Below, in pieces: positions 4,103 through 38,163 of a stretch of DNA of 38,163 bases. Position 1 is the stretch's first letter; the number at the start of each line of letters is the position of its first letter. A program made the position numbers and the translations under genes. Under the pieces are notes generated by a model, which was not told where the DNA came from, did not search any database, and saw only the letters and a list, made by a program, of their open reading frames with translations. The DNA comes from Candidatus Aphodovivens avistercoris (GTDB lineage: Bacteria > Actinomycetota > Coriobacteriia > Coriobacteriales > Eggerthellaceae): contig DVIW01000005.1 in the NCBI GenBank assembly GCA_018710945.1, positions 1 through 38,163 on the forward strand, read 5' to 3'.

Positions 4103-6034
4103 ATGAGTCCGAAACCGCAACCGCCACAGGGGAGCAACCTCTTCCAACGCGCCATATTTCGCATCAAGCACCCTGAAACGCACACCTCGCAGGAATGGGA
4201 CGAGATAGCAAAGCGCAAAAAGCAGCAGCGCCGCGAGAAGCGCAAAGCGCTTCTCCACCGGATAACAGCGTCGCCGCAAGAACCTCTGGCACAAAAGCAG
4301 CCGCACCGTGAGAAGCGCCAGGGCCTTCTCCGCCGTGAAACAACGCCGTCGCGCGAACCCCTGACGCTGATCCCCTTCACCTTTAAAAGCCTGATTATCC
4401 GCGCCGTTTTTGCCGTGGGCATTCCTGCCGCCATCGCGACGTTCTTCGCCTGGCAGGCCCCATGGGACGGGTTCGTCCGCGACAGCAACATCTTCGGCGT
4501 ATTCATCAGCGTGGGCGTATGGGGCCTCGCATGCTGGTGCTACGCCCAGTTCGGAAGCGCCAACGAGGGCAACGACCGCGCTCGGCCGCTGAAGTCGGTG
4601 GGCATTCTGGTTCTCGTCATCACGTTTTGCCTGATGGCATGTGCGTTTGTCGCGTGGATCGAGTACCTGAGAATGACGCTCATGAGCATAATGACCAACG
4701 GAAATGACGCCGCGCCATGGAGTACCTTCATGGCGCAGCTGGTTGACTCCTTCGTGGCATCGGGGCTGCCCGTCACACTGACCCTGTTCACCTGCGTGAG
4801 AATCGCGAGCTGGGCATGGCGCCGCTGGTCGGAAGCGTTTGAGACCAGCGAGGCGCTGTGGTGGCTCGACGCGGGCGTGCGTGTGCTGAAGTTTTTCGCC
4901 CACCTGTTTGCGGTGCTGGCGGTGGGCACATCGCTCGCGCTGCTGTGCGAGGCGGGGCTCTACCCCAACATTCCGCTGTGGTTCAACGGCCCCTGGTGGG
5001 CAGGCGTGGCGTCGCTCGCGCAGCAGCTCGCGCAAACAGGCATGCTCTGGGTGCTGGCGGCGGCGTGCGTGCTGCGCGTTGCGTGGCGGCGCTTCAAGCT
5101 GTGGAACGATGTGCGCACCGAGCGCGAGCGCAGCCTCTGGAAACAGCAGCCAAACCCTAAGCCCGACCTGGCCATAAGCGCCAAAACCGCGTTATCGAGC
5201 GCAATCGCGTCCGTCGTGCGCACCGTCTGTTTGACCGCCATCGTGCTGGCGTTTATCGCGTCGGCGCTCGCCCTTGTGCATCCCGGAGGGCTTCCAAGCG
5301 CCACCCTACTCGCCACCATGGCGTCTGCCCTGGCCACGGGCCCGCTAGCGGGCGCACTTGCGGCATGCGTCGCGCTTTACCTGGCGCGGCTTGCGAAGAA
5401 CCGCTGGGCTATGTCGTTGGGCAAAACGCACGGGTTCCTGCGCGGATTGGCAACCTTCGTTTGGGCGCTCGCGGCCATCGCCACCGCCGGATTGGCGCTC
5501 TATGGCATCGTGCGCGCCCAGCAGGCCACCGGAGTGTTCTCGACTTTGGGCTGGCAGCTGCAAAGCGGCCTGGAAAACCCCAATATCTGGGGATTCGTCA
5601 TCCATCTGGCCATCGGGATGGTCATCGCCATCATCGTGCTGTACATTGTGGTGATGCTTATCCCGTTCGGCGGGGGCGTCGGCGCAGGCGGCGGGGGCGG
5701 CGGTTATGCGGCCGGCGGTGGCGGTGGTGGCTCCAGTTTTGGCAGCAGCAGCGATTCCAAGCGTCAATCCGTCAACGACCGCTACGGCCGCAAGCTGGTG
5801 GAGGTAGATGATTCCGGCATATTCTCCCCCACCACCCTGCGCGACCGCCACGGCGCCAAGATTGGCACCGCACGCGAGAGCTGGGACGGCTCCACGCATG
5901 TGAGCATCGGCGACGACGAGTACCGCGTGCGTGAAGCCCTGTTCTCAAGCGACAAGATCGTGGAGAAAGACGGCGAAGAGGTGGGCCGCATCCGCGAAAG
6001 CGGTGGGGGCGACGACCGGTTCTATAAGAAGTAG
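4103..6034 (+). CDS. Unrecognised large membrane protein with Gly-rich linker
   Basis: I do not recognise this 643-residue protein. ATG 4103 is chosen because AGGAG (4091-4095) lies seven bases upstream; an in-frame ATG at 4097 would sit on the ribosome site. Residues 1-90 are basic and contain a tandem repeat of about 28 residues (REKRKALLHR... then REKRQGLLRR...), visible also in the DNA. About nine to ten membrane spans follow between roughly residues 100 and 530. Then comes a glycine-rich linker, including GGGVGAGGGGGGYAAGGGG, and a hydrophilic C-terminal domain of about 90 residues (SVNDRYGRKLVEVDDSG to the end) with repeated beta-like turns. The highly basic N-terminus and soluble tail suggest both ends are cytoplasmic. 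It is monocistronic, with a strong terminator 22 bases after the stop. A sensor or structural membrane role is possible but unsupported. Confidence 0.75.
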   Translation: MSPKPQPPQGSNLFQRAIFRIKHPETHTSQEWDEIAKRKKQQRREKRKALLHRITASPQEPLAQKQPHREKRQGLLRRETTPSREPLTLIPFTFKSLIIRAVFAVGIPAAIATFFAWQAPWDGFVRDSNIFGVFISVGVWGLACWCYAQFGSANEGNDRARPLKSVGILVLVITFCLMACAFVAWIEYLRMTLMSIMTNGNDAAPWSTFMAQLVDSFVASGLPVTLTLFTCVRIASWAWRRWSEAFETSEALWWLDAGVRVLKFFAHLFAVLAVGTSLALLCEAGLYPNIPLWFNGPWWAGVASLAQQLAQTGMLWVLAAACVLRVAWRRFKLWNDVRTERERSLWKQQPNPKPDLAISAKTALSSAIASVVRTVCLTAIVLAFIASALALVHPGGLPSATLLATMASALATGPLAGALAACVALYLARLAKNRWAMSLGKTHGFLRGLATFVWALAAIATAGLALYGIVRAQQATGVFSTLGWQLQSGLENPNIWGFVIHLAIGMVIAIIVLYIVVMLIPFGGGVGAGGGGGGYAAGGGGGGSSFGSSSDSKRQSVNDRYGRKLVEVDDSGIFSPTTLRDRHGAKIGTARESWDGSTHVSIGDDEYRVREALFSSDKIVEKDGEEVGRIRESGGGDDRFYKK

Positions 6035-6056
6035 CGCAGCTCGGTGCTGAATCAAC

Positions 6057-6088
6057 AGCGGCACCGCGTTTTGCGGTGCCGCTTTCTT
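6057..6088 (+). terminator. Rho-independent terminator
   Basis: A perfect 11-bp stem (AGCGGCACCGC / GCGGTGCCGCT) with a five-base loop is followed by TTCTT. It ends the membrane protein gene that stops at 6034. Confidence 0.85.
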
Positions 6089-6386
6089 ATTGCGCTGCTC
6101 TGCCGCTTGCGGGGCGACGAGCGGTTCTGTAGGCAATGGGGCCTATTTCGTGCGCCAGTCGCAGGGGTTGGGTGCAAGGCAGGCACGCAAGCCTTCGGTG
6201 ATGATGAGAAGGCAGTTCTCAAACGACGCCGCCGAATAGCCCGCCGCCGTAGTACGCCGCCAATGCTCGTTGAGCACGAACGGGGGCGCCTGGCGACCGC
6301 GCCTGGTGAGCATGCCCGGCACGCGCGATGGTTGGGGGACGTGTTCCTTTCAACCCATTTGGCAGGCCGCCTCGATGGGGTTGGTT

Positions 6387-6550
6387 GTCCGTGACAGAGG
6401 CGTTGTCCGTGACAGAGGGACGCATCTATTGGCACGAAGCTTGCAGCGAAGGGGCGCGGAGCGTGACGTTTGATGTGTCCCTCCGTCACCACGACTCCTC
6501 CGTCACCACGCCTCCGTCACCACGTTTGATGTGTCCCTCCGTCACCCGTC
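6387..6550. repeat. REPIN-like element, copy 1
   Basis: The 82-bp core (6409-6490) starts GTGACAGAGGGACGCATC and ends GTTTGATGTGTCCCTCCGTC plus ACC. The two ends are imperfect inverted copies, as in a REPIN made of two REP singlets. The core matches copy 2 (17761-17842) at 79 of 82 positions in the same orientation. Extra tail units lie outside it: GTCCGTGACAGAGG on the left, and CCGTCACC units plus a second TTTGATGTGTCCCTCCGTCA on the right. The GGGACGCATC and GGGACACATC cores are shared with the repeats flanking the RAYT gene. The rest of the 6089-6611 stretch holds no supported gene. Confidence 0.8.
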
Positions 6551-6611
6551 ACCGGGCTTTCTCCCGCATACGATCTCCTGTGCACGTCATGCTATGGGGG
6601 CTTTCGAGACG

Positions 6612-6885
6612 CATGACAATGTCGCTTGGCGGCGCCCACAGGCTGGAAGACGTGACCTCGAAGTTGTTCGAGAAGCTGGCCGAGTCAATGAGGCTCCCGG
6701 AGGGTCGCGCCATGGCGAGGCTTGGCGACCTTGCAGCCGGAATCGAAGGGGCGATAGAGGAAGCCTTTTCCTTCGTGGAATCTGGCGGGATCGCCTGCGG
6801 AGAGTTAGGGATCGCGTTGTCGGCGAGATCCGTGCGAATGCGGGAAGACTTTAGGAACGCGTGGGTGCATAAGGGCATTGATTGA
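6612..6885 (+). CDS. Possible small protein, unrecognised
   Basis: A 90-residue frame from ATG 6612 has protein-like composition (helical, Glu/Arg/Ala-rich, mostly G or C at third positions) but no domain I recognise and only a weak ribosome site. The open frame continues upstream into the REPIN-like element, so this could be the tail of a gene whose start was lost when the repeat arrived. It ends 78 bases before the regulator gene. Evidence is composition only. Confidence 0.3.
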
Positions 6886-6922
6886 CTTGCGCCAAGAAGA
6901 GATGCTGCAGCGTTTGGTGCCA

Positions 6923-6928
6923 TATAAT
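6923..6928 (+). promoter_or_regulatory. -10 hexamer of the regulator gene
   Basis: TATAAT lies 35 bases before the regulator ATG. No good -35 hexamer sits 16-18 bases upstream, so this promoter is either weak or activator-dependent. Confidence 0.4.
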
Positions 6929-6963
6929 GCGCTTCAAAGGCGGCGGCACCGAAGGGACTTGCC

Positions 6964-8679
6964 ATGAGTATCGTGAACTCGCAACTAGGCTCGCTTGTTT
7001 CTGACAAGGAGAAGTCAGCGTATCTTGCGAAAATACGATCAAGCAAAGATAAGCTGATTCACAGCGGAATAAATCCGTTCGAAAACCTGCGTGTTGAGCC
7101 GGAGGTCGCCGAATCGTGGATCGCTTCATACAATGCCGGGGTTGATCCCTACGCTCCAAACAACTCTGAGTACGTAGACTATGATGATCTTTCCAAGCGT
7201 CTAGCAGCCAATGTCGACATCGTTGCCGCCGTAGACGAGACGATAAGTCGCTTTCTTGGCGTTTTAAAGAAGATGATCAGCTCTATTTTTTACGCTGACA
7301 GCGACGGTGTGGTTCTTTACGTGCTCGAAGGGGAAGTTTCGAACGACAACTATCGTCAATTTGGGACGCGTGTCGGCGGGTTGTGGAACGAAGAGATCAC
7401 GGGGACTTCGGCGATCTCTTTGTGCGTCAAGCATCGGGATGTTGTCCAGCTGGTTGGGCCTGAGCACTATGGAATCGTTATGCAAGACCATCTCACCACT
7501 GCTGTTCCGATTCGCGGCTCAGACGGGGAGTTTTTCGGCGTGCTGGCGATGACAACGCTGCACAACAAAGTCGGCACGGGACTCTCTTATTCGCAACCGT
7601 ACAATCTTGGTCTTGCCTTGGCGTTGGCATCATCGATCGAGAGGCTCGTCCAGTTCGAGAGAAAGCCGTATGGAACAGACAATGGTGGGGGAGGCGGTCT
7701 TCTTGTAAGCGGACGCAGCGAAGAGGGGGCACGGTTCCCGGCGCTTCAAGATCTTATCGGATTGAGCGCCGCGTTCTCGAGCATAAAGAAACTTGCCAAG
7801 CAAGCTGCGCTTACAAAAGCGAACGCTTTCATCTATGGCGAGATGGGGGTGGGGAAGTTCACGCTTGCAAAAGCCATTGCTGCTGAGCGGGGGCTGTCTC
7901 CCGATTCGCTCGCGGTGCTCTCGTTTTCAGGAATGCCCGATTTGCTGATCGAAGAGGAGATGTTCGGCAGGGAGGGGCCGATGGGCGTTGTCGAGAAGGT
8001 GGGCATACTCGAGCAGGCAAAAGACGGTGTGCTCATCATCATGGAGATCGGTGATGCTCCGGCAAGAATCCAGCATGCCCTGCTGAATGCAATAGAGGAG
8101 CGTTCGTTTCGAAGGATAGGGGGCGCCGCTCGCGTTCGGCTTGGCTCGTTCCAGGTTGTTTCCACTTCGGAATTCGATCCGGCGGAGCTCGTGAAGCTTG
8201 GGAAACTGAGAAGCGATTTGGCCATTACGGTTTCGCAGATCAAAATAAACATTCCACCGCTTCGCGAAAGGCGTGATGACGAGCGGCTCCTCATCGGGCA
8301 TTTCTTGAAGCATGCCGGTGAGAGAAGCGGGATGCGGCGCCCTCCCCATTTGTCTTCTCGTGCTATGCAGGTGCTGCTTGAGACGCCGTTGCGTGGGAAC
8401 GTGAGGCAGCTGCGCGACGCTTTGCAGTATGCAGTTATAGTCTCCGAAGGGGAGACAATCAACGAAGACGATTTTCCGCTCGGCATTGAAGACGCTCCTG
8501 CCAAAGGCTTTTCCGAAGAGGATGGAGACGGCGTGATGTCACTTAAAGACGCCGAACGTGCGGCAATCGAAAACGCTTTGGCATTCACAAACGGCAACAT
8601 TCGAGAAGCGGCGAAGGTTTTGGGGATCAGCAGGTCAACGCTCTATCGCAAAATGGACGAGTATCGGATTGCCCGATGA
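6964..8679 (+). CDS. AcoR/NtrC-type regulator with degenerate AAA+ domain
   Basis: This 571-residue protein has an AcoR-like N-terminal domain (ESWIASYNAGVDP near 50-62), a GAF-like sensor (about 85-230), an AAA+ domain (about 265-500) and a C-terminal Fis-type helix-turn-helix (GNIREAAKVLGISRSTLYRK, 544-563). The Walker A loop is kept (GEMGVGKFT, 292-300), and an arginine in LRSDL (417) fits the arginine finger. Two canonical features are missing. The GAFTGA loop that contacts sigma-54 is replaced by EGPMGV around 337-342, and the Walker B aspartate is methionine (LIIMEIGD, Met360). It therefore probably does not remodel sigma-54 holoenzyme and may work with the housekeeping sigma factor, as TyrR-like members do. 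GAAGGGAC precedes the ATG. It reads toward the molybdoenzyme genes and is their likely aromatic-responsive regulator (inference). Confidence 0.85.
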   Translation: MSIVNSQLGSLVSDKEKSAYLAKIRSSKDKLIHSGINPFENLRVEPEVAESWIASYNAGVDPYAPNNSEYVDYDDLSKRLAANVDIVAAVDETISRFLGVLKKMISSIFYADSDGVVLYVLEGEVSNDNYRQFGTRVGGLWNEEITGTSAISLCVKHRDVVQLVGPEHYGIVMQDHLTTAVPIRGSDGEFFGVLAMTTLHNKVGTGLSYSQPYNLGLALALASSIERLVQFERKPYGTDNGGGGGLLVSGRSEEGARFPALQDLIGLSAAFSSIKKLAKQAALTKANAFIYGEMGVGKFTLAKAIAAERGLSPDSLAVLSFSGMPDLLIEEEMFGREGPMGVVEKVGILEQAKDGVLIIMEIGDAPARIQHALLNAIEERSFRRIGGAARVRLGSFQVVSTSEFDPAELVKLGKLRSDLAITVSQIKINIPPLRERRDDERLLIGHFLKHAGERSGMRRPPHLSSRAMQVLLETPLRGNVRQLRDALQYAVIVSEGETINEDDFPLGIEDAPAKGFSEEDGDGVMSLKDAERAAIENALAFTNGNIREAAKVLGISRSTLYRKMDEYRIAR

Positions 8680-8757
8680 TTGAGATAATTATGGAAATAA
8701 TATGAATTATTTTAACAAAGGAGGGGCGCCAACAAAGTATTGATCTCAACTTCGAAC

Positions 8758-8776
8758 ATGTCTCAAAATGAGACAT
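8758..8776. promoter_or_regulatory. Palindromic operator, ATGTCTC-N5-GAGACAT
   Basis: Perfect 7-bp arms separated by AAAAT lie about 195 bases before the molybdoenzyme start, in an AT-rich intergenic region. The size and spacing fit a Fis-type dimer site for the neighbouring AcoR-like regulator. That pairing is inference. Confidence 0.55.
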
Positions 8777-8789
8777 AACATTGTTCTAT

Positions 8790-8825
8790 AGCTCTGTCCG
8801 AAAACAGGACAGAGCTTATTTTATT
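8790..8825 (+). terminator. Rho-independent terminator of the regulator gene
   Basis: AGCTCTGTCC (8790-8799) pairs perfectly with GGACAGAGCT (8807-8816) over a seven-base loop and is followed by TATTTTATT. It separates regulator transcription from the molybdoenzyme operon. Confidence 0.8.
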
Positions 8826-8848
8826 CTCAAATTAAAATAACGAAAACA

Positions 8849-8902
8849 CGAACAAAAGTTCGCTCATTCGATTCTTTATATACTCGTTTTCGTGATCACG
8901 AA
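8849..8902 (+). promoter_or_regulatory. Likely molybdoenzyme promoter with 14-bp palindrome
   Basis: A TATACT -10-like hexamer (8879-8884) lacks a good -35, as expected for an activated promoter. A small inverted repeat CGAAC-AAAA-GTTCG (8849-8862) covers the -35 area. A perfect palindrome, TTCGTGATCACGAA (8889-8902), covers the expected transcription start. The latter could be a repressor site. Assignments are from spacing only. Confidence 0.5.
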
Positions 8903-8970
8903 TTGCAGGGTTGGCCGACAACTCCGGTTCTAAAGCGAGTCACGCTAACAGGGAGAGGGAGGAGAATCGT

Positions 8971-11586
8971 ATGGGTGAGCCTATTAAAATCAGAGACAAA
9001 ACTGTTCTGAAGGGTCTTGGGTTCGACAGTTTTGGACAGGGGTCGAACTCTTGCGAGGTGGATGTTCTTGACGGGAGGATCGTTCGCACGCGTCCGTTCC
9101 ACTACAACTACAAGGACGCATACGATCCTCAGGACAAGAATCCGTGGACCATTGAGGCTCGGGGCCATACGCTGGTTGCTAAAGAGGAATCGCTGCTGTG
9201 TCCGTTCGAGCTGGCATATAAGCTGCGGGCCTATTCGCCTAACCGCATTCCGTTTCCGCTGAAACGAGTTGACTGGGAACCTGGCGGCGATCCTGAAAAA
9301 ATCAATGCGGAGAATCGCGGGAAGTCGAAATTCGTGCGCATCAGCTGGGATGAGGCGACGACGATCATCGCGGACGAGATTCGACGCATGGAGTCCCAAT
9401 ATGGTCTAACGGCTATTCTTGCGCAGTGCGACGGCCATGGAGAAACGAAAAGCATACATGGGCCCCATGGGTGCCAGACGCATTTGCTGCAGCTTCTCGG
9501 GAACTACACGCAGCAAATCCGCACGCCTGACAGCTGGGAAGGCTGGGTATGGGGAGCCAAGCACGTTTGGGCCCAGTTCCCTGTGGGCCAGCAGCGTCAG
9601 GTGAACATGCTCAAGGACATTTGCGAGAACACCGAGATGATGCTGTACTGGGGTTCCGATCCTGAGGCTATGTGCTGGGGTTGGGGTGGCCAAACGGCAA
9701 GCTACCTTGCGTCTCATTTCGACAAGCTCGGCATTAAAAACGTGTTCGTTTCCCCCGACTTCAACTACACCGCCGCAGCGCATCCCGGCAAATGGATACC
9801 GGTGCTTCCGAACACCGATTCCGCCCTCCAATGCGCCATCGCCTATACATGGATCACTGAAGGCATTTACGACCGCGAATACATCGACACCCATTCGATC
9901 GGCTTCGATTGGTTCGAATCCTATGTGCTGGGCAACATAGACGGCGAGCCGAAGACTCCGAAGTGGGCTGAGCGCATTTGCGGAGTGCCTTCCCGAATCA
10001 TCAAAGCGTTTGCACGGGATTGGGCTTCGCACGTGACGGTCATCTCCCACTGCAACGGTGGTGGCTACATTCGCTCCGCGTACTCCCATGAGCCGGCGCG
10101 ACTCGAAGTGGTTCTGCTTGCAATGCAAGGTCTCGGCAAACCTGGTTCGGGGCAGTTCATTTATTTCCAGTGGCAGCTGTTTGGAATGCAGTCCACCAAT
10201 GCTGGACCGAGATCTTCCATCATTCCGAGCATCGAGGGTTGCTATCATGGTATTGACCAGGCGTTTATTCCGGAATCGTTCATCCCGAAGACGCTTATCC
10301 CCAAGGCTATCTTGGGTGACTACACTGAAGAGCATCCTCTGAAGTGGCACAGCTTCACGCATTGTTCTCTTCCCGCATCGGATCAGTTCGACGAGTATCA
10401 GTATCCCGTTCCTGGCGCTTCTCCCATCCACATGATTTGGACCGACACGCCCTGCTGGACGACATGCTGGAATGGTGGAAACGAGATGATCGAAGCTGCT
10501 CGTTCTCCCAAGATCGAGTTCATCTTGGCTCAGCATCCCTGGTTCGAGAACGACTGCCTGTTTGCCGATATTCTGCTGCCCGTGAACACGAAGTTCGAAG
10601 AAGAGGACTTCGCCGATGACCTTCTCAACGGTTTTTACAACCATATTTTCTACGAAGCGCAGGCCATCGAGCCCATCGGCGAGTCCAAGAGCGATTGGGA
10701 GTGCGTACTTGAAGTTGCAAAGAAACTCGGCGTGTATGAGCAGCTGACCGAGGGCCTTACCTATGATGATCTGATTTACCGCGGATGGGAGAAGTCTCGT
10801 TGTGCCGATAACGTAAGCTACGAGGACTTCCGTAAAAACGAGTATTACATCATTCCGACGGCCGAAGACTGGGAAGACGATGAGCCGGGTCTGCATGCGT
10901 TTTGGCGTGATCCGCAAAACAACCCGCTTGACACCCCGTCGGGTTTGCTTGAGATCTACTCGCCTTCGCTGGCATACAACTTCCCCGACGACACGGAGCG
11001 CATGCCGTATCCACGCTATATGGGAGATGGCGAATCCCATCAGGAAAGCCTGTTTTCGCCTCGTGCGAAAGACTACCCGTACATCATGATGTCGAACCAT
11101 CCGCGTTGGCGCGTGCACGCGAACATGGACGACATCCCCTGGTTCCAGGAGATCGAGACGAGCAAGGTCCATGGAGAAGACGGCTATCCCTATGAGCCTG
11201 TGTGGATCAATCCCGAAGATGCCAAGGAGCTCGGCATTGAGGACGGCGACATCGTGGAGATCTACAACGAGCGTGGCATGGTGCTTGGCGGCGCGTACGT
11301 CACGTATCGAATCATGAAGGGTGCGGTCAACCAGGACCATGGCGCTCGTCTCGATCCGCTTGAGTTCGGTGTTGCTGATCGCGGCGGTGCGAACAACATC
11401 ATCTGCCCGACGAACGTTACGTCGAAGCACTGCGCGGGCGAGGTAACGAACGGATTTTTGGTTGGACTGAAGAAAGCAGACATGGATGAGCTGAAAAGCC
11501 GTTATCCGGAAGCGTTCTCTCGCACGTTCGACGCGGCGACAGGCATGGTCATAAGCGACTGGATCATCGAAGGGGATGAAGCGTAA
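8971..11586 (+). CDS. Molybdopterin oxidoreductase, AthL-like large subunit
   Basis: This 871-residue protein belongs to the DMSO reductase family (bis-MGD cofactor). It has no Tat signal and no N-terminal Cys motif for an iron-sulfur cluster, both unlike most of the family but like the large subunit of Pelobacter pyrogallol-phloroglucinol transhydroxylase (about 875 residues, cytoplasmic). The sequence PDSWEGW (186-192) is in the place of the transhydroxylase's Asp-Ser-Trp where, as I recall, the serine binds molybdenum; a DGHGE motif (154-158) precedes it at a similar distance. Later segments (HPRWRVHANMDDI, GDIVEIYNERGMVLGGA, CPTNVTSKHCAGE) are molybdopterin-binding domain features. ATG 8971 follows GGGAGGAG; a TTG at 8911 is open but unlikely. 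Its stop overlaps the next ATG (TAATG). A catechol- or pyrogallol-type dehydroxylase or transhydroxylase is likely; the substrate is unknown. Confidence 0.9.
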   Translation: MGEPIKIRDKTVLKGLGFDSFGQGSNSCEVDVLDGRIVRTRPFHYNYKDAYDPQDKNPWTIEARGHTLVAKEESLLCPFELAYKLRAYSPNRIPFPLKRVDWEPGGDPEKINAENRGKSKFVRISWDEATTIIADEIRRMESQYGLTAILAQCDGHGETKSIHGPHGCQTHLLQLLGNYTQQIRTPDSWEGWVWGAKHVWAQFPVGQQRQVNMLKDICENTEMMLYWGSDPEAMCWGWGGQTASYLASHFDKLGIKNVFVSPDFNYTAAAHPGKWIPVLPNTDSALQCAIAYTWITEGIYDREYIDTHSIGFDWFESYVLGNIDGEPKTPKWAERICGVPSRIIKAFARDWASHVTVISHCNGGGYIRSAYSHEPARLEVVLLAMQGLGKPGSGQFIYFQWQLFGMQSTNAGPRSSIIPSIEGCYHGIDQAFIPESFIPKTLIPKAILGDYTEEHPLKWHSFTHCSLPASDQFDEYQYPVPGASPIHMIWTDTPCWTTCWNGGNEMIEAARSPKIEFILAQHPWFENDCLFADILLPVNTKFEEEDFADDLLNGFYNHIFYEAQAIEPIGESKSDWECVLEVAKKLGVYEQLTEGLTYDDLIYRGWEKSRCADNVSYEDFRKNEYYIIPTAEDWEDDEPGLHAFWRDPQNNPLDTPSGLLEIYSPSLAYNFPDDTERMPYPRYMGDGESHQESLFSPRAKDYPYIMMSNHPRWRVHANMDDIPWFQEIETSKVHGEDGYPYEPVWINPEDAKELGIEDGDIVEIYNERGMVLGGAYVTYRIMKGAVNQDHGARLDPLEFGVADRGGANNIICPTNVTSKHCAGEVTNGFLVGLKKADMDELKSRYPEAFSRTFDAATGMVISDWIIEGDEA

Positions 11587-12401
11587 TGAAGGTATTCGTT
11601 ATCGACGAGCAGAAATGCAACGGCTGCCACAACTGCCAGATCGCTTGCAAGGACGAGCACTGCGGCAACGATTGGAGCCCCATTTCGCTTCCGCAGCCGC
11701 TTACTGGCCAGTTTTGGGTCAAAGTTGACGAGAAGACGGTTGGTCAGACCCCGAAAGTGCGCGTCGACTACCACGTTACGCGGTGCAATCACTGCGAGAA
11801 CGCTCCGTGCATGGCGGCTGCGGAGAACGGTGCGGTGTACCGCCGGGATGACGGGCTGGTCATCATCGATCCCGTTGCATCCAAGGGTCAGAAAGCCATT
11901 GTGGACGCATGTCCCTACGGCGTGGTGTTCTGGAACGAAGAGCTCGAAGTTCCCCAGAAATGCACGGGCTGCGCGCATCTTCTCGATGCCGGTGAAAAGC
12001 CTCACTGCGTGGATGTGTGCACGACGGGCGCTTTGCGCTTTGGCGAGTATGAGGAGTTTGCCGAGGAGCTTGAAGCCGCCCATGCCGAGGTCATGAAGCC
12101 GGAACTTGGCACCAAGCCGCGTGTGTACTATCTCAATCGGCCGAAGATTTTCTATGCGGGGGACGTCTACGATCCCGAGCTTGACGAGTGCCTTGAAAAC
12201 GCAACGGTAACGCTTTCGCGAAAGTCAGACGGTGCCGTGTTTGAGCAGAAGACTAACAACTACGGTGATTTCTGGTTTGACGGGCAGGAAGCTGGCGCGC
12301 ATGAGCTTCGCATAGCGTGTGACGGTTACGAAGCGGTGGTCAAGGAGTTTTCGTCAGACGAATGTCTCAACTTGGGAAGTTTCCCGATGAACGCCATCTG
12401 A
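11586..12401 (+). CDS. AthS-like iron-sulfur subunit with C-terminal Ig-like domain
   Basis: This 271-residue partner of the large subunit carries cysteine motifs for three 4Fe-4S clusters: CNGCHNCQIAC (11-21), CNHCENAPC with a later ACPYG, and CTGCAHLL...CVDVC. Residues from about 186 form a Cna-B/transthyretin-like beta domain (AGDVYDP...NNYGDFWFDG...YEAVVKEF). Both the length and this unusual C-terminal domain match the small subunit of Pelobacter transhydroxylase (274 residues, three clusters plus a beta-barrel domain). No membrane anchor follows, so the complex should be soluble. The ATG overlaps the upstream stop by one base, implying translational coupling. Electrons may come from the ferredoxin encoded 0.3 kb downstream (inference). 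Confidence 0.9.
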   Translation: MKVFVIDEQKCNGCHNCQIACKDEHCGNDWSPISLPQPLTGQFWVKVDEKTVGQTPKVRVDYHVTRCNHCENAPCMAAAENGAVYRRDDGLVIIDPVASKGQKAIVDACPYGVVFWNEELEVPQKCTGCAHLLDAGEKPHCVDVCTTGALRFGEYEEFAEELEAAHAEVMKPELGTKPRVYYLNRPKIFYAGDVYDPELDECLENATVTLSRKSDGAVFEQKTNNYGDFWFDGQEAGAHELRIACDGYEAVVKEFSSDECLNLGSFPMNAI

Positions 12402-12413
12402 TTCTGCATGCAT

Positions 12414-12450
12414 GGGCGACCGTTGCTCGATGATGCAGCGGCGGTCGCCC
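12414..12450 (+). other. Intercistronic stem-loop
   Basis: GGGCGACCG (12414-12422) and CGGTCGCCC (12442-12450) form a perfect 9-bp stem with further pairing inside. No T-run follows, and the next gene's ribosome site comes shortly after. It is therefore more likely an mRNA processing or 3'-stabilising element that sets subunit levels above the downstream genes than a terminator. Confidence 0.55.
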
Positions 12451-12487
12451 CAACAGGAGGAAAGCGGGAGAGAAAGGAGTTTCGGCT

Positions 12488-12685
12488 ATGTGCTTCAGGC
12501 CGGCTATGGCATCTGCGGAAGTCAAATGCCCTCGTTGCGGGCATCCGATCGCGAAGGAGGATGGTGACGTTTGTCCGAAATGCGGACTTACGAAGGAAGA
12601 GCTGGAAAGCGGAGGTCTTGTTCCGACTCCTGGAAAGCCTGGCGGGCTCGTGCCGCCACCTCCTGCTCCGCCTTCTGCCAGGTAA
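12488..12685 (+). CDS. Zinc-ribbon miniprotein with proline-rich tail
   Basis: This 65-residue protein has one Cys4 zinc ribbon (CPRCGHP...CPKCG, about residues 14-32) and a Gly/Pro tail rich in PPP. AAAGGAG lies eight bases before ATG 12488; an internal ATG at 12506 would give MASAEVKCPRCG and is possible. It is between the AthS-like subunit and the ferredoxin genes on the same strand, so it is probably co-transcribed. Zinc ribbons of this size can be chaperones, adaptors or nucleic-acid binders. A cofactor-insertion or partner-binding role is only suggested by position. The tail could be a docking segment. Confidence 0.7.
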   Translation: MCFRPAMASAEVKCPRCGHPIAKEDGDVCPKCGLTKEELESGGLVPTPGKPGGLVPPPPAPPSAR

Positions 12686-12706
12686 GCCTTTGGATGCTGA
12701 GCAAGC

Positions 12707-13018
12707 ATGGGAGCGAGCGGCAAGGTATCGGTGCTTCTCTGTGGGGGCAGCGGTGATCTGAGGGAATTCGAGGTCTCTGCAGGGCTCACCGTCGCCCAAG
12801 CGCTTGAAGCGATCGGTCTGCCTGTGAAAACGCCATGCGGGGGAGCGGGTCATTGCTGCTCATGCACGACGAAAGTATGGCGGAAGGGGGAAACGTCTCC
12901 TATCAGGGTCCGCGCATGCCGCGAGAAAGTGGCGGAGGGGATCAAAATCTATCCGGCGCATTGCAGGGTGGTCGGTGTGTTGGTGCCCCCTCCCCCTCAT
13001 CGAAAGATCAGAGGGTAG
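12707..13018 (+). CDS. Stand-alone 2Fe-2S ferredoxin (RACo N-domain-like)
   Basis: This 103-residue protein has the 2Fe-2S ferredoxin pattern Cys44-x5-Cys50-x2-Cys53-x17-Cys71 (PCGGAGHCCSC ... RACRE). A preceding LTVAQALEAIGLPV helix fits the beta-grasp fold. The PCGG-G-C--C / AC--V order, with an IKIYP strand after the last cysteine, resembles the ferredoxin domain at the start of reductive activators of corrinoid proteins (DUF4445/ASKHA). The ASKHA part is absent here. The start at 12707 has a poor ribosome site, so the N-terminus is less certain. As the only small electron carrier in the cluster it may feed the molybdoenzyme; involvement with the UroD-like protein is an alternative. Confidence 0.75.
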   Translation: MGASGKVSVLLCGGSGDLREFEVSAGLTVAQALEAIGLPVKTPCGGAGHCCSCTTKVWRKGETSPIRVRACREKVAEGIKIYPAHCRVVGVLVPPPPHRKIRG

Positions 13019-13248
13019 TCGCGATCGGGTGGTCTCGGCGCCTTTTGCGCAACGTGAGTGAGGGGCAAGGAAACGCCTTTTCGCATGTCGCGCTTAAGGG
13101 TTTTCGCAATCTAGACAATTTCAACCAAATGATTGGAACAGCCGTCACGTACTCGGCCTGGTCTCGTGCTGACTGAAAGGGGGGATGCTTTTGGCTCATG
13201 CTGCCTCGTTTGGGCTACGCAAGATGAACAAAACATAGGAGGGGTCTT

Positions 13249-14484
13249 ATGTCTACTAATTCAGAAAACGCAACACCCAGCAAGTGGCGCTGGCTCGTTC
13301 TCGCAACTTGCTTCCTGCTGTACATGTTCGGGAATTACTCTTCGTACGCAATGGGTCTGACGATGGTTCCTGTGCGTGAGGCGATGGGGCTTGACACGGC
13401 AGCTGGCGGCATGCTGTCTTCGGTGCTTATGTTCGGAGCGGTGATCGGCTGCGTTCTTGCGGGCCGACTTGCTTCTACATGGGGAAGTCGCAACGTTATC
13501 GTTGCATCCGGCGTTGTCATCGGCATCTGCTGCATCGTTTGTTCGCAGCTGACCAACTACACCGCATGGATTGTTGTCAGGTTCATTAACGGATTGGCCT
13601 ACGGTGCCCAGTTGGGTCCCGTGGTGACGCTCGCGACCGATCACTGGGCAGGCAAGCGCCAGAACATGGCGACCGCGTTCATCCTTTCAAGTTTCCCGGT
13701 CTCGGGAGCCCTTGCGGCTTTTGTTACGGGGCTGTTCCCGGACAACTATGCGATGGTTTGGCTGCTGTGCGGTCTTGCCATCATCCCGGCCCTTCTGACG
13801 CTGCTCGTTCCGAGCGATAGGCTTACGGCTGGTCAGGTTGCCGCCAAAGCGGACGAAGGGGAAAGCGTCGGTTTCGGTTCGATCTTTGCGGGGAATCTCA
13901 AATTCGTCACCATCTTTGCCATTATCGTTAGCTTCATGAACATGGCTGGCGTCTGGGCGCTTGGAACTTGGCTGCCGTCTTGGCTTCAGATCGAGCGCGG
14001 TCTATCCACTGAGATCATGGCCAACTTCTCCATGGTCAACTACCTCGGCGGGTTTATTGGGTACTTCTTCTGGTCTTGGTTGGGAAAGAAAATCACCAAC
14101 CCCAAGTCCCTTATCGTTGGCTACTTCGCCACTGCTGCGACGGCGATCATCTACTTCCTGATGCCTGGCACTGACCTGTTGTTCTATTGGGGTCCGGTTG
14201 TGTACTTCTGCCAGGCGGTCAACGTTATGTGCTCGATTACGTTTGCTGCTGCTTTCCCGCGTCTTATCAGGGCGTATGGTGCAGGAACGTGCTTTAACGT
14301 GGGTCGTGTTGGCTCCATCATCTCGCCTTACACCACGGCGATCATCGGTACGGCATTCGGCCTTACCGCTGGTTTGGCAACGGTTCCCGTGTTCTATGCC
14401 ATTGGCGGTCTGTTCGGGTTTGGCCTCAACCGCTTTGTGAAGAAGCAGGAGCGCATCGATGCTGCTGAGGAGGCTGGGAAGTAA
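13249..14484 (+). CDS. MFS transporter 1
   Basis: This 411-residue protein has twelve predicted membrane helices and major facilitator motifs (GRLASTWGSRNVIV in the 2-3 loop, residues about 68-81). AGGAGGGG precedes ATG 13249. It is a clear paralogue of the transporter at 14630: both have an IFAGN...TIFAI / TLFAI helix start and FNVGR-GSIISPYT near the end. Unlike that partner, it lacks acidic residues in helix 1 (YMFGNYSSYAMG). The likely job is uptake or exchange of the aromatic substrate or product of the molybdoenzyme (inference from position). Confidence 0.85.
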   Translation: MSTNSENATPSKWRWLVLATCFLLYMFGNYSSYAMGLTMVPVREAMGLDTAAGGMLSSVLMFGAVIGCVLAGRLASTWGSRNVIVASGVVIGICCIVCSQLTNYTAWIVVRFINGLAYGAQLGPVVTLATDHWAGKRQNMATAFILSSFPVSGALAAFVTGLFPDNYAMVWLLCGLAIIPALLTLLVPSDRLTAGQVAAKADEGESVGFGSIFAGNLKFVTIFAIIVSFMNMAGVWALGTWLPSWLQIERGLSTEIMANFSMVNYLGGFIGYFFWSWLGKKITNPKSLIVGYFATAATAIIYFLMPGTDLLFYWGPVVYFCQAVNVMCSITFAAAFPRLIRAYGAGTCFNVGRVGSIISPYTTAIIGTAFGLTAGLATVPVFYAIGGLFGFGLNRFVKKQERIDAAEEAGK

Positions 14485-14498
14485 GGGGTTTCTTCTGC

Positions 14499-14553
14499 GA
14501 AGAGGTGGCGGTAGGGATACGAGCGGTTTCGTTTGCGTCCCCGCTGCCACCCT
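14499..14553 (+). other. Imperfect long hairpin between the two MFS genes
   Basis: GAGGTGGCGG on the left pairs with CCGCTGCCACCCTC on the right with small bulges, and an inner ACG/CGT stem continues it. No T-run follows (AATCAATTT), so it may stabilise or partly terminate the upstream transcript. A separate ribosome site serves the next gene. Confidence 0.4.
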
Positions 14554-14629
14554 CAATCAATTTGCATGCTTGGGCCGCATTTCAACATGGCCTGATGCAT
14601 GAGTCCCGAATAAAAAGGGGAGGGACAAC

Positions 14630-15892
14630 ATGAAAAGTGACGCTTTTCGCATTCCCGAGGGGGCTCCGGGAACCAAGGCGCGCTGGGCGGTTGTTCTGTG
14701 CTGCGCAGGCGCCTATTTCTTCGATTCCTACGACATGTACATTTTGGGAATCGTCATGCAGGATATCCTCACCGAGCTCAATATGACGACGGCTCAAGGT
14801 GGGCTCTTGTCATCTGCGACGATGCTTGGCGCGGTTATCGGCAGCGTGTTTCTTGGCAGATTTGCATCGAATTACGGGAACAAGTTCTGCCTTGTTTTGT
14901 GCACCGCATGGATAGGGGTTTGCTCTCTCGCCGTTGTTTTCGTTCAGAGCTTTGCTGCGTGGTTTGTGCTGCGCGTTCTTGTCGGACTTGGCATCGGTGG
15001 CATCATGGGGCCGATTCATGCGCTTATCTGGCAGCATTGGGGGCCAGGTCACCGCACGAAGATCACCGGGCTCACGTTCAGCACGTTTCCCATTGCCGGC
15101 ATTGCTGCGAGCTTGATGGGCAAGCTCGTGCTCGTGACGAACTTCCGTGTCATTTTCATCTCCGCGGGTCTTTCCATCGTTGTCGCGGTTGTCGCCTACT
15201 TCATGATTCCAGATGACAAGCATCTGGTTCCACGCGGCCAGATTGCAGCTTCCCAGGGTGCTGGCAAGGTCAAGACGAACGAGATCTTTGCGGGAAACTA
15301 CAAATGGATTACCCTCTTCGCCATTTTCGCGAGTTTTGCCAACATGGCTGCTTGCTGGGCGATGAACACGTGGATCCCGTCTTGGCTTATGACCGATCGC
15401 GGGCTCGACATGGCGGAAATGACGAATTTTGCCACGCTCAACTACTGCGGAGGCTTGGCGGGCTACCTCATCTGGGGCGTGATAGGATCAAAGATAGGTT
15501 CTGGTCGCGCGATGGTGGCTGCTTACGCCTTGTCCGCAATCGCATTGCTCGCTTACATCGTTATGCCGGGTGGCAGCTACCTCGCTCTTCTTGGGCCGGT
15601 GCTTTATTTCGGCCAGGGCGGATGCGGCTGCTTGAATTCTGTTCTGTTTGCAGAGGCGTACCCCGAGCGAACGAGAGCGTATGGCTCTGGCACGGCATTC
15701 AATGTTGGACGCATCGGTTCGATCATCTCTCCCTATACGGTAGCGCTGGTCGGTACGAGTTTCGGTTTGACGGCCGGCTTGCTTATGGCGCCAGCGTTCT
15801 TCGCTTTCGGCGTGGTCGTATCGGTTGTTTTGAACCGCGTTCTCCGCAAGCAATGGGCGATAGAGGGCCGCTCCGATCTTGATAGGGAATGA
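14630..15892 (+). CDS. MFS transporter 2 (AAHS-like)
   Basis: This 420-residue, twelve-helix protein is similar along its length to MFS transporter 1. Helix 1 contains FFDSYDMYILG, which resembles the DGxD-type motif of the aromatic acid:H+ symporter (AAHS) group, and loop 2-3 has GRFASNYGNKFC. AGGGGAGGGAC lies before ATG 14630. Having two paralogues that differ at the helix 1 acidic site suggests distinct transport modes or substrates, such as substrate import and product export. That division is inference. Confidence 0.85.
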   Translation: MKSDAFRIPEGAPGTKARWAVVLCCAGAYFFDSYDMYILGIVMQDILTELNMTTAQGGLLSSATMLGAVIGSVFLGRFASNYGNKFCLVLCTAWIGVCSLAVVFVQSFAAWFVLRVLVGLGIGGIMGPIHALIWQHWGPGHRTKITGLTFSTFPIAGIAASLMGKLVLVTNFRVIFISAGLSIVVAVVAYFMIPDDKHLVPRGQIAASQGAGKVKTNEIFAGNYKWITLFAIFASFANMAACWAMNTWIPSWLMTDRGLDMAEMTNFATLNYCGGLAGYLIWGVIGSKIGSGRAMVAAYALSAIALLAYIVMPGGSYLALLGPVLYFGQGGCGCLNSVLFAEAYPERTRAYGSGTAFNVGRIGSIISPYTVALVGTSFGLTAGLLMAPAFFAFGVVVSVVLNRVLRKQWAIEGRSDLDRE

Positions 15893-15904
15893 TGTCGCAT
15901 TGGC

Positions 15905-15968
15905 GGCGATGCGCCGGTGGGCAGGATAGGCGATGCGCCAGTTGAGTGACATGCTTTGGCTGGCGCAT
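15905..15968. other. Repeated GGCGATGCGCC and stem-loop before the nitroreductase
   Basis: GGCGATGCGCC occurs twice (about 15904 and 15930). The second copy's ATGCGCCAG (15933-15941) pairs with CTGGCGCAT (15960-15968) over an 18-base loop. No T-run follows. It may act on mRNA stability between the transporter and nitroreductase genes. Confidence 0.35.
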
Positions 15969-16017
15969 TTGCGAGAGGGATGCTGCAAGGGCGTTTTGGC
16001 TGAGAAGGGAGAAAGCT

Positions 16018-16599
16018 GTGGAGGTTTACGAATGCATCACAACGCGGCGAAGCTGCCGTGCCTACAAGGACATGCCGATCGAGAGAGAAAAGCTTGAACG
16101 GGTCGTTGAGTCGGGGCGCTTTGCTCCAAGCGCGAACGACAATCAGATGGCGCGGTTCATCGTGCTTGCAAGCAAGGAGGCGCTTGATGAAATCGCCGCT
16201 GTTGTTCGCAGGGCGTATGCGGAAATGAAGGAAGATGATCCGAAGTACGCGTCATCTCAGGGCGTTATCGAAAAGTCCAAGGACGGAAGCTACGTTTTTC
16301 ACTACGACCCATCTGCGCTTGTGATTGTTGCCAACAAGGATGGCTATTCCCATGCCATGGCTGATTGTGCTTGCGCGATCGAGAACATGATGATAGAGGC
16401 GAACGATCTCGGGCTTTCGAGCGTTTGGGTGAACCAGTTGTGCGCGTTCGAGCGCCATCCAGATGTGGTCGGGCATTTGCGCAAGATCGGTTTGGCGGAT
16501 GATGAGATCGTGTATGGGGCATTAAGCATCGGGTATGCGCAGGTGCCAAACCATGATGCTCCGGAGCGCAAGGGCAACCCGGTGGTGTATGTGGAATGA
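16018..16599 (+). CDS. Nitroreductase family protein
   Basis: This 193-residue FMN-dependent nitroreductase-fold protein has ITTRRSCRAYKD (the RRS FMN phosphate contact), FAPSANDNQMARF (35-47) and an ENMMIEANDLGLSSVWV segment typical of the dimer/FMN site. It has no extra ferredoxin domain. I chose GTG 16018-16020, eight bases after AAGGGAG, giving MEVYECITTRRS; the longer open frame from 15946 is not family-like. The cluster position suggests reduction of an aromatic or enone intermediate, or electron transfer, but family membership alone does not fix the substrate. Confidence 0.85.
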   Translation: MEVYECITTRRSCRAYKDMPIEREKLERVVESGRFAPSANDNQMARFIVLASKEALDEIAAVVRRAYAEMKEDDPKYASSQGVIEKSKDGSYVFHYDPSALVIVANKDGYSHAMADCACAIENMMIEANDLGLSSVWVNQLCAFERHPDVVGHLRKIGLADDEIVYGALSIGYAQVPNHDAPERKGNPVVYVE

Positions 16600-16651
16600 C
16601 GCTGCGCCGATTCTGATTGGTTTTCGTTCTGCGGCATGAGAAGGAGCCATC

Positions 16652-17689
16652 ATGTTGGGAGCAAGGAACAGGGGTCGCTTGCAAACGTGCATGCGCGGGC
16701 AAGTGCCTGACGCCCGTCCGTATTGCTGGTACTACAGCTACGATTTCGTTGGATCGGCGACGGGTGTGAACTTGAGGGAGTACTTGTTCGACCCCAAGCT
16801 CATGTTTGAAACTCAGATGCATCTTTGCTCCCTCTTGGACGGAGGCATATCGCTGATTCCCGATGGCGCGATGCTGCCTGAGAACGAAGCGCTTGGTGCT
16901 GAGTTGGTGTTCACAAATGGGTATCCGACCACAAAGCATCAAGATTGCGTGATGATCGGCTCGATCGCTCGCTCGGATCCCGTCAATCCGTACAACGGAA
17001 AACTGATGGAAGCTTTGCTGGAAGCGCTGAAATACATGAGGGGTCATGCTCCAAACGATGTTTCCGTCGAACCGACGTTTATCACTGGTCCGTTTTCGTT
17101 GGCTGCATCCGTTTGCGGGATTTCGGATTTTCTCGTTGGTCTGTATGAAGAACCCGACACCGTCAAGCAATGCTTGGAGATGGTTGCCGAAACCGAAATA
17201 GCGTATCTGAAAGAGCAGGAGAAGATCCTGGGTCCATTGGACCGTATCTCGATGTCCGATGACGTATCGGCGTTTCTCTCGCCTGAGATGTTTCGAGAGT
17301 TCGTGCTGCCTACTTATGATCGAGTGCGTGCTGCGTTTCCCCATTCGCAGCACTGGCTGCATAACGATGCAGATACTTCAAAAATCTACCGGGATATCTG
17401 CGGATACGGTTTCGATCTATGGCATGTGGGCTACGTCGTGGATATCGTGAAGATCGCGCACGATACACCTGATAGCAAGACGGTTCTTGCCGGAAACCTG
17501 GTTCCCTTGGACGATCTTGCCTGCAAAACGACGGAGGATGCGTTGGGGCTTGCGAAAGATCTTCTCGCTCAATTTGACAACAGCTCGAGGTTCGCCATCT
17601 CTGCTGGTGGGTTCCTTGCAACAGGAACCCCAGTTGAAACCGTTCGCGCGATCATGCATCTTGCCGACGAGTGGCAGCTGGTGCAATGA
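16652..17689 (+). CDS. UroD/MtaA-fold protein lacking zinc cysteines
   Basis: This 345-residue protein belongs to the uroporphyrinogen decarboxylase / methylcobamide:CoM methyltransferase superfamily. It has PTFITGPFSLAASVCG (about residues 141-156), MSDDVSAFLSPEMFREFVLP, LHNDADTSKIY and a C-terminal SAGGFLATGTPVETVRAIM. In methyltransferases of this fold, zinc is held by His-x-Cys and a later Cys. Here those positions read His-Asn-Asp (LHND) and GGF, so neither cysteine is present. A zinc-thiol methyltransferase is therefore unlikely; a decarboxylase or other carbon-carbon chemistry is possible. GAAGGAG precedes ATG 16652. It is the last gene of the cluster; the REPIN-like element begins 12 bases after its stop. 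No corrinoid protein gene is nearby. Confidence 0.8.
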   Translation: MLGARNRGRLQTCMRGQVPDARPYCWYYSYDFVGSATGVNLREYLFDPKLMFETQMHLCSLLDGGISLIPDGAMLPENEALGAELVFTNGYPTTKHQDCVMIGSIARSDPVNPYNGKLMEALLEALKYMRGHAPNDVSVEPTFITGPFSLAASVCGISDFLVGLYEEPDTVKQCLEMVAETEIAYLKEQEKILGPLDRISMSDDVSAFLSPEMFREFVLPTYDRVRAAFPHSQHWLHNDADTSKIYRDICGYGFDLWHVGYVVDIVKIAHDTPDSKTVLAGNLVPLDDLACKTTEDALGLAKDLLAQFDNSSRFAISAGGFLATGTPVETVRAIMHLADEWQLVQ

Positions 17690-17701
17690 GGTTTTGCCAA
17701 G

Positions 17702-17905
17702 CGTGACAGAGGGACGGGTGACAGAGCGGGTGACAGAGTGACAGAGGGAGGACGGACAGAGTGACAGAGGGACGCATCTATTGGCACGAAGCTTGAAGCG
17801 AAGGGGCGCAGAGCGTGACGTTTGATGTGTCCCTTCGTCACCCTTCGTCACCCATCCCTCCGTCACCCATCCCTCCGTCACCCCCGTCACTCCGTCGCCC
17901 GTCAC
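17702..17905. repeat. REPIN-like element, copy 2
   Basis: The 82-bp core (17761-17842) is 79/82 identical to copy 1 and has the same orientation. The left side carries several TGACAGAG units (17704, 17720, 17731, 17740 and others). The right side carries many CGTCACCC units up to about 17905. This gives an expanded palindrome of variable tails around a fixed core. It lies between the UroD-like gene and the HAD gene. Confidence 0.8.
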
Positions 17906-17932
17906 CCCCTCATCCGATAGAAGGAGGCTACC

Positions 17933-25229: not shown

Positions 25230-25757
25230 ATGACCCGCACTTCCGAACAGCCGTCAACTGCGCCCCGGTCGCCCGCCGCATCTTTGCCCGGCGGCCGGCA
25301 ACCGGCCGCGCCTCCGGCCACCAACGAGCACGTGCGCAAGTCGATGCAGGGCAACAAGCGCAAGGACACCAAGCCCGAGCTGCTGATGCGCGCCCGGTTG
25401 CGCAAGGCAGGGCTGACCGGCTACCGGCTGCAGTGGAAGGTGCCGGGCCGGCCCGACATCGCTTGGCCGGGCAAGCGCGTGGCCATCCAGGTCATGGGCT
25501 GCTTCTGGCACCGCTGCCCGCACTGCAACCCGCCTTCCCCGAAATCCCACGTGGAGTATTGGGTCGTCAAGTTCGAGCGCAACGTGCAGCGCGACGAGCG
25601 CACGCTGGACGAGCTGCGGCAGGCCGGTTGGACGGTGCACGTGGTGTGGGAATGCCAGCTCAAGAAGAAGGCCATCGACGACACGCTGCGCGAGCTGTTC
25701 CCGCAGCTGTCGCGCGAGCTGGGCAAGCCGCTCGCCGAGGGCTGGGACGAGGTTTAA
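25230..25757 (+). CDS. vsr: Very short patch repair endonuclease (Vsr)
   Basis: This 175-residue protein nicks 5' of T:G mismatches formed by deamination of 5-methylcytosine. The family signature NKRKDTKPELLMRARL (42-57) is followed by GRPDIAWP with the catalytic Asp76, CFWHRCPHC (91-99; catalytic-site His94, zinc ligands Cys/His), FERNVQRDE and VVWECQ (Cys142). The zinc ligands occur as Cys-His-Cys-His/Cys, slightly different from E. coli Vsr but known in homologues. A disordered Pro/Ala-rich N-terminus of about 30 residues precedes the fold. No cytosine-5 methyltransferase lies in the window, so its partner must be elsewhere. Confidence 0.9.
   Translation: MTRTSEQPSTAPRSPAASLPGGRQPAAPPATNEHVRKSMQGNKRKDTKPELLMRARLRKAGLTGYRLQWKVPGRPDIAWPGKRVAIQVMGCFWHRCPHCNPPSPKSHVEYWVVKFERNVQRDERTLDELRQAGWTVHVVWECQLKKKAIDDTLRELFPQLSRELGKPLAEGWDEV

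Positions 25758-35001: not shown

Positions 35002-38163
<3,162 letters not shown>

Follow-up and report, generated by a model that had tools for sequence, protein, structure and literature searches.

The window analysed here, 38,163 nucleotides long, is one whole contig (DVIW01000005.1) of the 2.45-Mb genome of Candidatus Aphodovivens avistercoris, a member of the Eggerthellaceae (genome G000). It holds a gene cluster built around a putative molybdenum enzyme, whose two subunits resemble AthL and AthS, the pyrogallol-phloroglucinol transhydroxylase of Pelobacter acidigallici (4v4c). We took the cluster as positions 6409–17842; the original prediction spanned 8971–12401 only. From 5′ to 3′, the genes are those of a regulator, AthL, AthS, a zinc-ribbon protein marked by the letters MCFRP, a [2Fe-2S] protein, two major facilitator superfamily permeases (MFS1 and MFS2), a nitroreductase-family protein and an MtaA-like URO-D-family protein. 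The features of the two subunits are listed below; relatives belonging to the same clade as the large subunit are called window-type, and those of the clade of AthL itself AthL-proper.

8971..11586, + strand: AthL-type catalytic subunit, 871 residues, predicted to carry bis-molybdopterin guanine dinucleotide (bis-MGD); sequence search, Pfam, Foldseek, tree and motif search
9529..9546, + strand: DSWEGW, residues 187–192 of the large subunit, aligned with AthL 174–179; Ser188 is the predicted molybdenum ligand
10450..10470, + strand: PCWTTCW, residues 494–500 of the large subunit, signature of the window-type clade; residue counts over 142 rows
11586..12401, + strand: AthS-type electron-transfer subunit, 271 residues; best match AthS, twelve cysteines
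12159..12344, + strand: Ig-like carboxypeptidase-regulatory domain (CarboxypepD_reg), residues 192–253 at the C-terminus of the small subunit; PF13620, 37.3 bits, cut-off 32.3

The large subunit starts at the ATG at 8971, which is preceded by the ribosome site GAGGGAGGAG. Among proteins of solved structure, AthL is closest to it in sequence (4v4c_A, E 4.4e-111, 375 bits), followed by MtsZ at 239 bits, and the Pfam model of the AthL N-terminal domain (domain 1, PF21423) is passed marginally (28.1 bits, cut-off 27). An AlphaFold2 model of the protein, with a mean predicted local distance difference test score of 91.5, finds 4v4c_A as its best Foldseek match (E 1.4e-73, 30% identity in the alignment). 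A motif search detected neither a twin-arginine (RR) motif in the first 60 residues nor a CxxCxxxC motif in the first 110, and neither was found in any of the 120 listed relatives. For this reason we take the enzyme to be cytoplasmic, in agreement with the original prediction, which had described a large subunit devoid of both a twin-arginine translocation (Tat) signal and an N-terminal iron-sulfur motif. The same prediction had paired this protein with a 271-residue, three-cluster subunit ending in an Ig-like domain. Indeed, the best match of the small subunit is AthS (4v4c_B, E 9e-58), twelve of its cysteines (positions 11, 14, 17, 21, 67, 70, 75, 109, 126, 129, 141, and 145) align with AthS cysteines, and PF13620 covers its end.

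Metal site, pocket and clade

The comparison of residues around the molybdenum covers 142 rows of the window-type and 121 of AthL-proper, assigned mostly by which search had found them and including some near-copies. All rows of both sets retain His144, Asp174, and Ser175 of AthL, and all but one retain Trp176. The presence of Asp and Ser in 142, and of Trp in 141, of the 142 window-type rows indicates that the DSW motif is not a chance match. In the window protein the molybdenum shell consists of His156, Asp187, Ser188, and Trp189, with Ser188 predicted to bind the metal. The equivalence of DSWEGW to the Asp-Ser-Trp motif of the Pelobacter enzyme, which had been proposed from the sequence, is thus borne out by the alignment with AthL 174–179, AthL being also the best structural match.

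The pocket, on the other hand, is changed. We take Tyr152, Tyr404, Tyr560, Phe468, Cys557, and Trp354 to line the AthL pocket, their roles being presumed. Tyr152 is present in 121/121 AthL-proper rows and is replaced by Gly, Ala or Ser in all 142 window-type rows. At the position of Tyr404, which was read in P0121 (a protein of equal length and 81% identical to the typed AthL), all 120 AthL-proper rows with a letter have Tyr, and 139 of the 142 window-type rows have Pro. Tyr560 (119/121 AthL-proper) falls in a gap in all window-type rows; Phe468 (118/121) and Cys557 (107/121) vary there, and Trp354 (104/121) is mostly Tyr, Phe or Leu. In turn, the window-type proteins have marks of their own: a GHGExK motif with His163 (138/142) and D-x-P-C-W-x-T-C-W, in which Cys495 is found in 135, Cys499 in 139, and Trp500 in all of the 142 rows. 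At these three positions the 121 AthL-proper rows have Ser or Pro (Ala once), Thr, and Met, respectively. A kept metal shell combined with a changed pocket likely means the same metal chemistry acting on a different substrate.

The position of the enzyme was examined in a tree of 82 proteins: 34 window-type, 20 AthL-proper, one S/N-oxide reductase (MtsZ, the sole TorA-type row) and 27 of the acetylene-hydratase/catechol-dehydroxylase type. The last group comprises 25 proteins from loci of Gordonibacter sp. 28C, G. pamelaeae, Ellagibacter and Raoultibacter timonensis, one from G000, and acetylene hydratase itself; neither a dehydroxylase of proven activity nor RhL is among the rows, and the catechol dehydroxylases are thus judged by proxy. 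The tree is a quick search with Shimodaira–Hasegawa-like approximate likelihood ratio support, and carries a long-branch warning at MtsZ and acetylene hydratase. Window-type proteins form one clade (support 100), sister to AthL-proper (100); the two are joined at 99 with MtsZ outside, and the acetylene-hydratase/catechol-dehydroxylase type stands apart at 100. Judged from these sequences, the enzyme is a member of a large sister clade of AthL, inside the RhL/PgtL family of serine-ligand enzymes. A tree placing the window protein firmly among the dehydroxylases had been named as the outcome that would overturn the original prediction; the protein falls outside that clade, as represented by the proxy rows. 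The other such outcome, a model with the DSW motif away from the molybdenum, did not arise either, the model at hand being one of the protein without metal.

The clade is widespread. Of 138 genomes searched in the host family, 47 encode a window-type protein at E 1e-150 or better, often in several copies; up to six candidates were scored per genome, and copy numbers are therefore lower bounds. Among the named genera that carry it are Gordonibacter, Ellagibacter, Adlercreutzia, and Raoultibacter. Overall, at least 592 contig stretches encode a relative, of which 80 were kept.

The transhydroxylase design claimed for the locus therefore holds as an AthLS design, and not as the transhydroxylase itself: the window enzyme shares with AthL/AthS the fold, the two subunits, DSWEGW, the equivalent of His144, the twelve cysteines of the small subunit, and the C-terminal domain, but differs by its 30% identity, its sister clade, its altered pocket, and the GHGExK and PCWxTCW motifs. 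We assume a likeness also to DbhLS, the 3,5-dihydroxybenzoate hydroxylase of Thauera. For RhL/RhS of Azoarcus anaerobius, likeness follows from the published scheme, in which the serine-ligand RhL/PgtL family is given as cytoplasmic (PMC10100899), rather than from a comparison of sequences.

Of the dehydroxylases of the host family, Dadh, Cadh, and Hcdh of Eggerthella are, like the window enzyme, bis-MGD enzymes, but they are Tat-exported and likely membrane-bound (PMC7028382); they are not among the tree rows, and E. lenta Hcdh has 1193 residues vs. 871 in the window large subunit. The general statement that Eggerthella-type dehydroxylases are exported is correct for these three and does not extend to Dodh and similar Gordonibacter enzymes, which have no Tat export and adjoin MFS genes (PMC7028382). 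These Gordonibacter-type enzymes (Dodh, Gp Hcdh, Eadh1/2) resemble ours in the small Fe-S partner, the host family and, for Dodh and Gp Hcdh, the missing Tat signal; they differ, as judged from acetylene-hydratase-type proteins of the same genomes, by their clade and an N-terminal cysteine motif. Cytoplasmic two-subunit catechol dehydroxylases of the Gordonibacter type with their own MFS genes are thus already described (PMC7028382, PMC11887054). Accordingly, of the suggestion that a cytoplasmic member with its own transporters acts on a different polyphenol, the different substrate is made likely by the pocket, and the layout is not new in itself. The clade is one for which no characterised member turned up in the literature listings and passages searched. 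Published work puts the catechol dehydroxylases in a clade adjacent to acetylene hydratase and distant from transhydroxylase (PMC7028382), and DorA, EbdA, and AthL serve as outgroups in a later tree (PMC11887054). With AthL as an outgroup, such surveys may overlook the window-type clade; if its members dehydroxylate polyphenols, a share of the polyphenol metabolism of the gut is going unnoticed.

Neighbouring genes and candidate reaction

The other genes of the cluster are the following:

6964..8679, + strand: AAA+ Fis-type regulator of the enhancer-binding-protein type; Walker A kept, GAFTGA loop missing, Walker B altered
12488..12685, + strand: MCFRP zinc-ribbon protein, 65 residues, proline-rich tail, predicted accessory factor; PF13248, 29.2 bits, cut-off 27
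12707..13018, + strand: [2Fe-2S] ferredoxin-like protein, 103 residues, predicted electron carrier; PF00111, 25.7 bits, cut-off 21
13249..14484, + strand: MFS1, best model aromatic-acid/H+ symport; TIGR00895, 127 bits, below the cut-off of 418.55
14630..15892, + strand: MFS2, best model aromatic-acid/H+ symport; TIGR00895, 165.5 bits, below the same cut-off of 418.55
16018..16599, + strand: nitroreductase-family flavoprotein; PF00881
16652..17689, + strand: URO-D-family protein of the MtaA/CmuA methyltransferase type; PF01208, MtaA/CmuA models 65–79 bits, below cut-off

We compared the cluster with the loci of R. timonensis (L021) and of an Eggerthellaceae metagenome-assembled genome (L022). 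Gene calls of the compared loci came from a codon model, and two small window genes were read by eye. Common to the three, in this order, are the regulator, AthLS, the MCFRP protein, the two permeases and the nitroreductase slot. Identity to the window in L021 and L022, respectively, is 94 and 92% for AthL, 90 and 78% for AthS, 65 and 47% for the regulator, 84 and 75% for MFS1, and 81 and 79% for MFS2; the MCFRP gene was located in the same place by tblastn (73 and 76%). The nitroreductase slot is kept with sequences 25–26% like that of the window and 56% alike between L021 and L022. The [2Fe-2S] gene is present in L021 (61%) and was not found in L022 by tblastn, and the MtaA-like gene was found in neither locus. 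Among 84 AthL-type loci, a protein of the MFS cluster lies nearby in 27, and one of a LysR-like cluster in 19.

The reading that we favour, with a probability of about 40%, is that the locus at 6964–17689 encodes a two-subunit molybdoenzyme of the AthL sister clade that would reductively dehydroxylate a small aromatic compound imported by the two permeases. It is preferred because the frequent occurrence of several window-type genes per genome, accompanied by regulators and transporters, resembles that of substrate-induced dehydroxylases. In such a scheme the regulator would sense the substrate and act without sigma-54, the permeases would bring the substrate in, and the enzyme, devoid of an export signal, would strip a hydroxyl from it. 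Electrons would likely arrive via the [2Fe-2S] protein and then the AthS clusters, and the net reduction could be used as an electron sink. The MCFRP protein would help to assemble the enzyme.

Part of the weighing depends on what the host genome can do with the products. The phloroglucinol pathway relies on a hydrolase of the cyclase family and on an enzyme that cleaves beta-keto acids (PMC10470551); we place the two in PF04199 and PF05853 (BKACE), respectively. PF04199 was not found in G000 and was found in 8 of 14 control genomes; PF05853 was likewise not found in G000, and was found in 1 of the 14. A route from pyrogallol through phloroglucinol to acetate by the known enzymes is therefore not expected, nor is a transhydroxylase feeding it likely; ring fermentation to acetate was dropped as a candidate on these grounds. 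Corticoid 21-dehydroxylation was also set aside: Elen_2451–2454 are described with FdhD and SPFH neighbours (PMC11835702), and no link to the cluster was seen.

The reverse direction, an oxidative ring hydroxylase like RhL/RhS that adds a hydroxyl and passes electrons out through AthS, is unlikely. Its merit is that RhL and PgtL are placed in one serine-ligand family and both given as cytoplasmic (PMC10100899); according to the same source, the bacteria that employ RhL respire anaerobically with resorcinol as the electron donor, a setting that speaks against it here, as does the failure to find ring-cleavage families of the phloroglucinol type in G000. With no RhL in the tree, this counter-evidence is weak. 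We consider an S- or N-oxide reductase of the TorA/BisC kind, located in the cytoplasm and equipped with an acquired AthS partner, rather improbable. TorA/DMSO reductases share with it the fold and a serine ligand, and VIA-align places TorA above AthL; however, the oxide-reductase model scores far below its cut-off of 1017.55, both Foldseek and phmmer rank AthL first, the window-type clade joins AthL at 99 with MtsZ outside, and DSWEGW together with an AthS partner are AthL marks. TorA/DMSO reductases are not known to have an AthS-like partner.

Alternatively, the cluster could demethylate methoxylated aromatics, the MtaA-like and corrinoid-activator-like proteins transferring the methyl group and AthLS handling the freed phenol. 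The matches to the MtaA/CmuA models fit such a role, as does the [2Fe-2S] protein, whose nearest PDB relative is the corrinoid activator 3zyy (E 6.5e-4), and one cluster of URO-D-type neighbours spans 5 of the 84 loci, the window included. The MtaA-like gene was, however, not found in L021 and L022, and a corrinoid-binding domain was not found among the Pfam-scanned window proteins, which makes this an improbable account. A pyrogallol-phloroglucinol transhydroxylase working as in Pelobacter is still harder to accept: for both subunits the closest proteins of solved structure are AthL and AthS, and His, Asp, Ser, and Trp around the molybdenum are kept, but the proteins form a separate sister clade, Tyr152, Tyr404, Tyr560, Phe468, and Cys557 are not kept, and G000 has no PF04199 or PF05853 match. 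Finally, membership in the family of catechol dehydroxylases already described from Coriobacteriia, to which the shared bacterial class, the two-subunit cytoplasmic layout and the MFS genes alongside might point (PMC7028382), can practically be dismissed, since the acetylene-hydratase-type proxies from Gordonibacter, Ellagibacter, and Raoultibacter fall in a clade of their own with a support of 100 and AthL is an outgroup in the published tree of these enzymes (PMC11887054).

Zinc-ribbon protein and regulator

MCFRP-type genes were chosen by the letters [ML]CFRP plus CxxC. They were found in 26 of the 84 AthL-type loci (19 of the 50 loci with 2.5 kb on both sides), never farther than 7.8 kb from the AthL-type gene. 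Family alignment A3 covers 20 of the 26 loci; its four ribbon cysteines are invariant, the MCFRP letters being shared by choice. A profile search of seven genomes returned 30 loci, 25 of which have MCFRP. Proximity to molybdopterin genes was counted in the three genomes with lists of such genes, using listed profile matches that begin at profile position 1. Within 3 kb of a listed molybdopterin gene, a zone amounting to 7–8% of each of these genomes, lie 5/6 matches in G000, 13/20 in Gordonibacter sp. 28C, and 8/11 in G. pamelaeae, while 11 of all 37 are away from any listed molybdopterin gene. When the four matches used in the profile are left out, 22/33 are near (binomial p 8e-17). The neighbours include both AthL-type genes and, for many MCFRP genes, acetylene-hydratase-type genes; hence, the factor may serve both enzyme arsenals. 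The term "zinc ribbon" was not found in a small text search of catechol-dehydroxylase papers, which is no proof of absence, and DadhE appears as an unannotated accessory protein in PMC11887054. A need for the MCFRP protein would be a testable explanation for the difficulty of producing such enzymes outside their hosts.

The loss of the GAFTGA loop and the altered Walker B are found also in the regulators of L021 and L022. On the other hand, the loop is intact in all five regulators located close to window-type genes in Firmicutes, in the form GSFTGA, GAFTGA or GTFTGA. G000 gave no match to the sigma-54 domain PF00309, which was found in 4 of the 14 control genomes. Taken together, these observations fit a module derived from sigma-54-bearing bacteria; the tree gives no direction of transfer. 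A broader picture, which is tentative and as a whole rather doubtful, would then be that gut Coriobacteriia own a second arsenal of cytoplasmic molybdenum dehydroxylases, of the AthLS branch as opposed to the acetylene-hydratase branch, with several members per genome, each with its own regulators and permeases. The MCFRP assembly factor would be common to both arsenals, and sigma-54-bearing Firmicutes would be the source of the module, whose activator would have been rebuilt to work free of sigma-54.

Relatives within the clade and setting of the contig

The proteins closest to the window large subunit in the tree are copies from two other Eggerthellaceae, and next to these come P0002 and P0004. 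Around them, a larger branch also includes Firmicutes (Moorella, Sporomusa, Desulfitobacterium), R. timonensis b, Gordonibacter P0075, and Adlercreutzia ZJ304. Three paralogues of G000 were placed: those on its contigs C51 and C17 fall in another Coriobacteriia branch, and that on C38 lies outside both branches. The fourth AthL-type gene of G000 (L103, C38, about 4286–9950) has DSVEGW in place of DSWEGW and adjoins, by eye, FKBP-like, VOC-like, and SDR-like genes.

A copy more than 90% identical to the window gene occurs patchily, in four genomes including G000. AthL identity to R. timonensis and G130 (94 and 92%) exceeds that of GyrB (86 and 83% over a 573-residue piece), which made recent horizontal transfer a candidate; the window DNA is merely 79% identical to L021, however, and a recent event was rejected. 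Gene loss is an equally good account.

Further afield, window-type AthL genes were seen in Dehalococcoidales (L079, L045) with a UbiX-like gene, by eye, and AthS was not found alongside. In a Spirochaetes metagenome-assembled genome (L099, 272–20174), window-type AthLS lie near genes that by eye resemble those of a beta-keto-acid cleavage enzyme and of a hydrolase of the cyclase family, the two families used in phloroglucinol fermentation. As for the other branch, a first look at the R. timonensis genome G003 gave 124 candidates for the acetylene-hydratase-type protein, a very large expansion.

A direct repeat flanks the cluster on both sides:

6409..6490, + strand: left copy of the 82-bp direct repeat, 96% like the right copy, outside the cluster
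17761..17842, + strand: right copy of the 82-bp direct repeat, 96% like the left copy

By eye, the repeat resembles a short palindromic element whose ends are of the GTGACAGAGGGAC type. A search with 261 bases surrounding the right copy returned both copies in G000, two weak partial matches, and no match in G022 or R. timonensis. An Rfam scan of positions 6000–18000 gave no match at the gathering threshold.

In G021, a genome of the same genus, two overlapping pieces (L210, L211) of a 22,263-base contig (there also numbered C38) are base-for-base identical to window positions 1–22263. The GyrB of G021 is merely 86% like that of G000, and one of the two draft genomes may contain a misplaced contig. 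The window CarB (carbamoyl-phosphate synthase large chain, 35002–38103) is 94% like that of G022, the same value as for GyrB, which speaks for G000 as the home of the contig. G022 has two kinds of CarB, 94 and 53% like the window copy, and R. timonensis showed a 52% kind only; CarB failed as a vertical marker, since the window copy is one of two kinds. Elsewhere on the contig, positions 25344–25757 resemble, by eye, a very short patch repair endonuclease.

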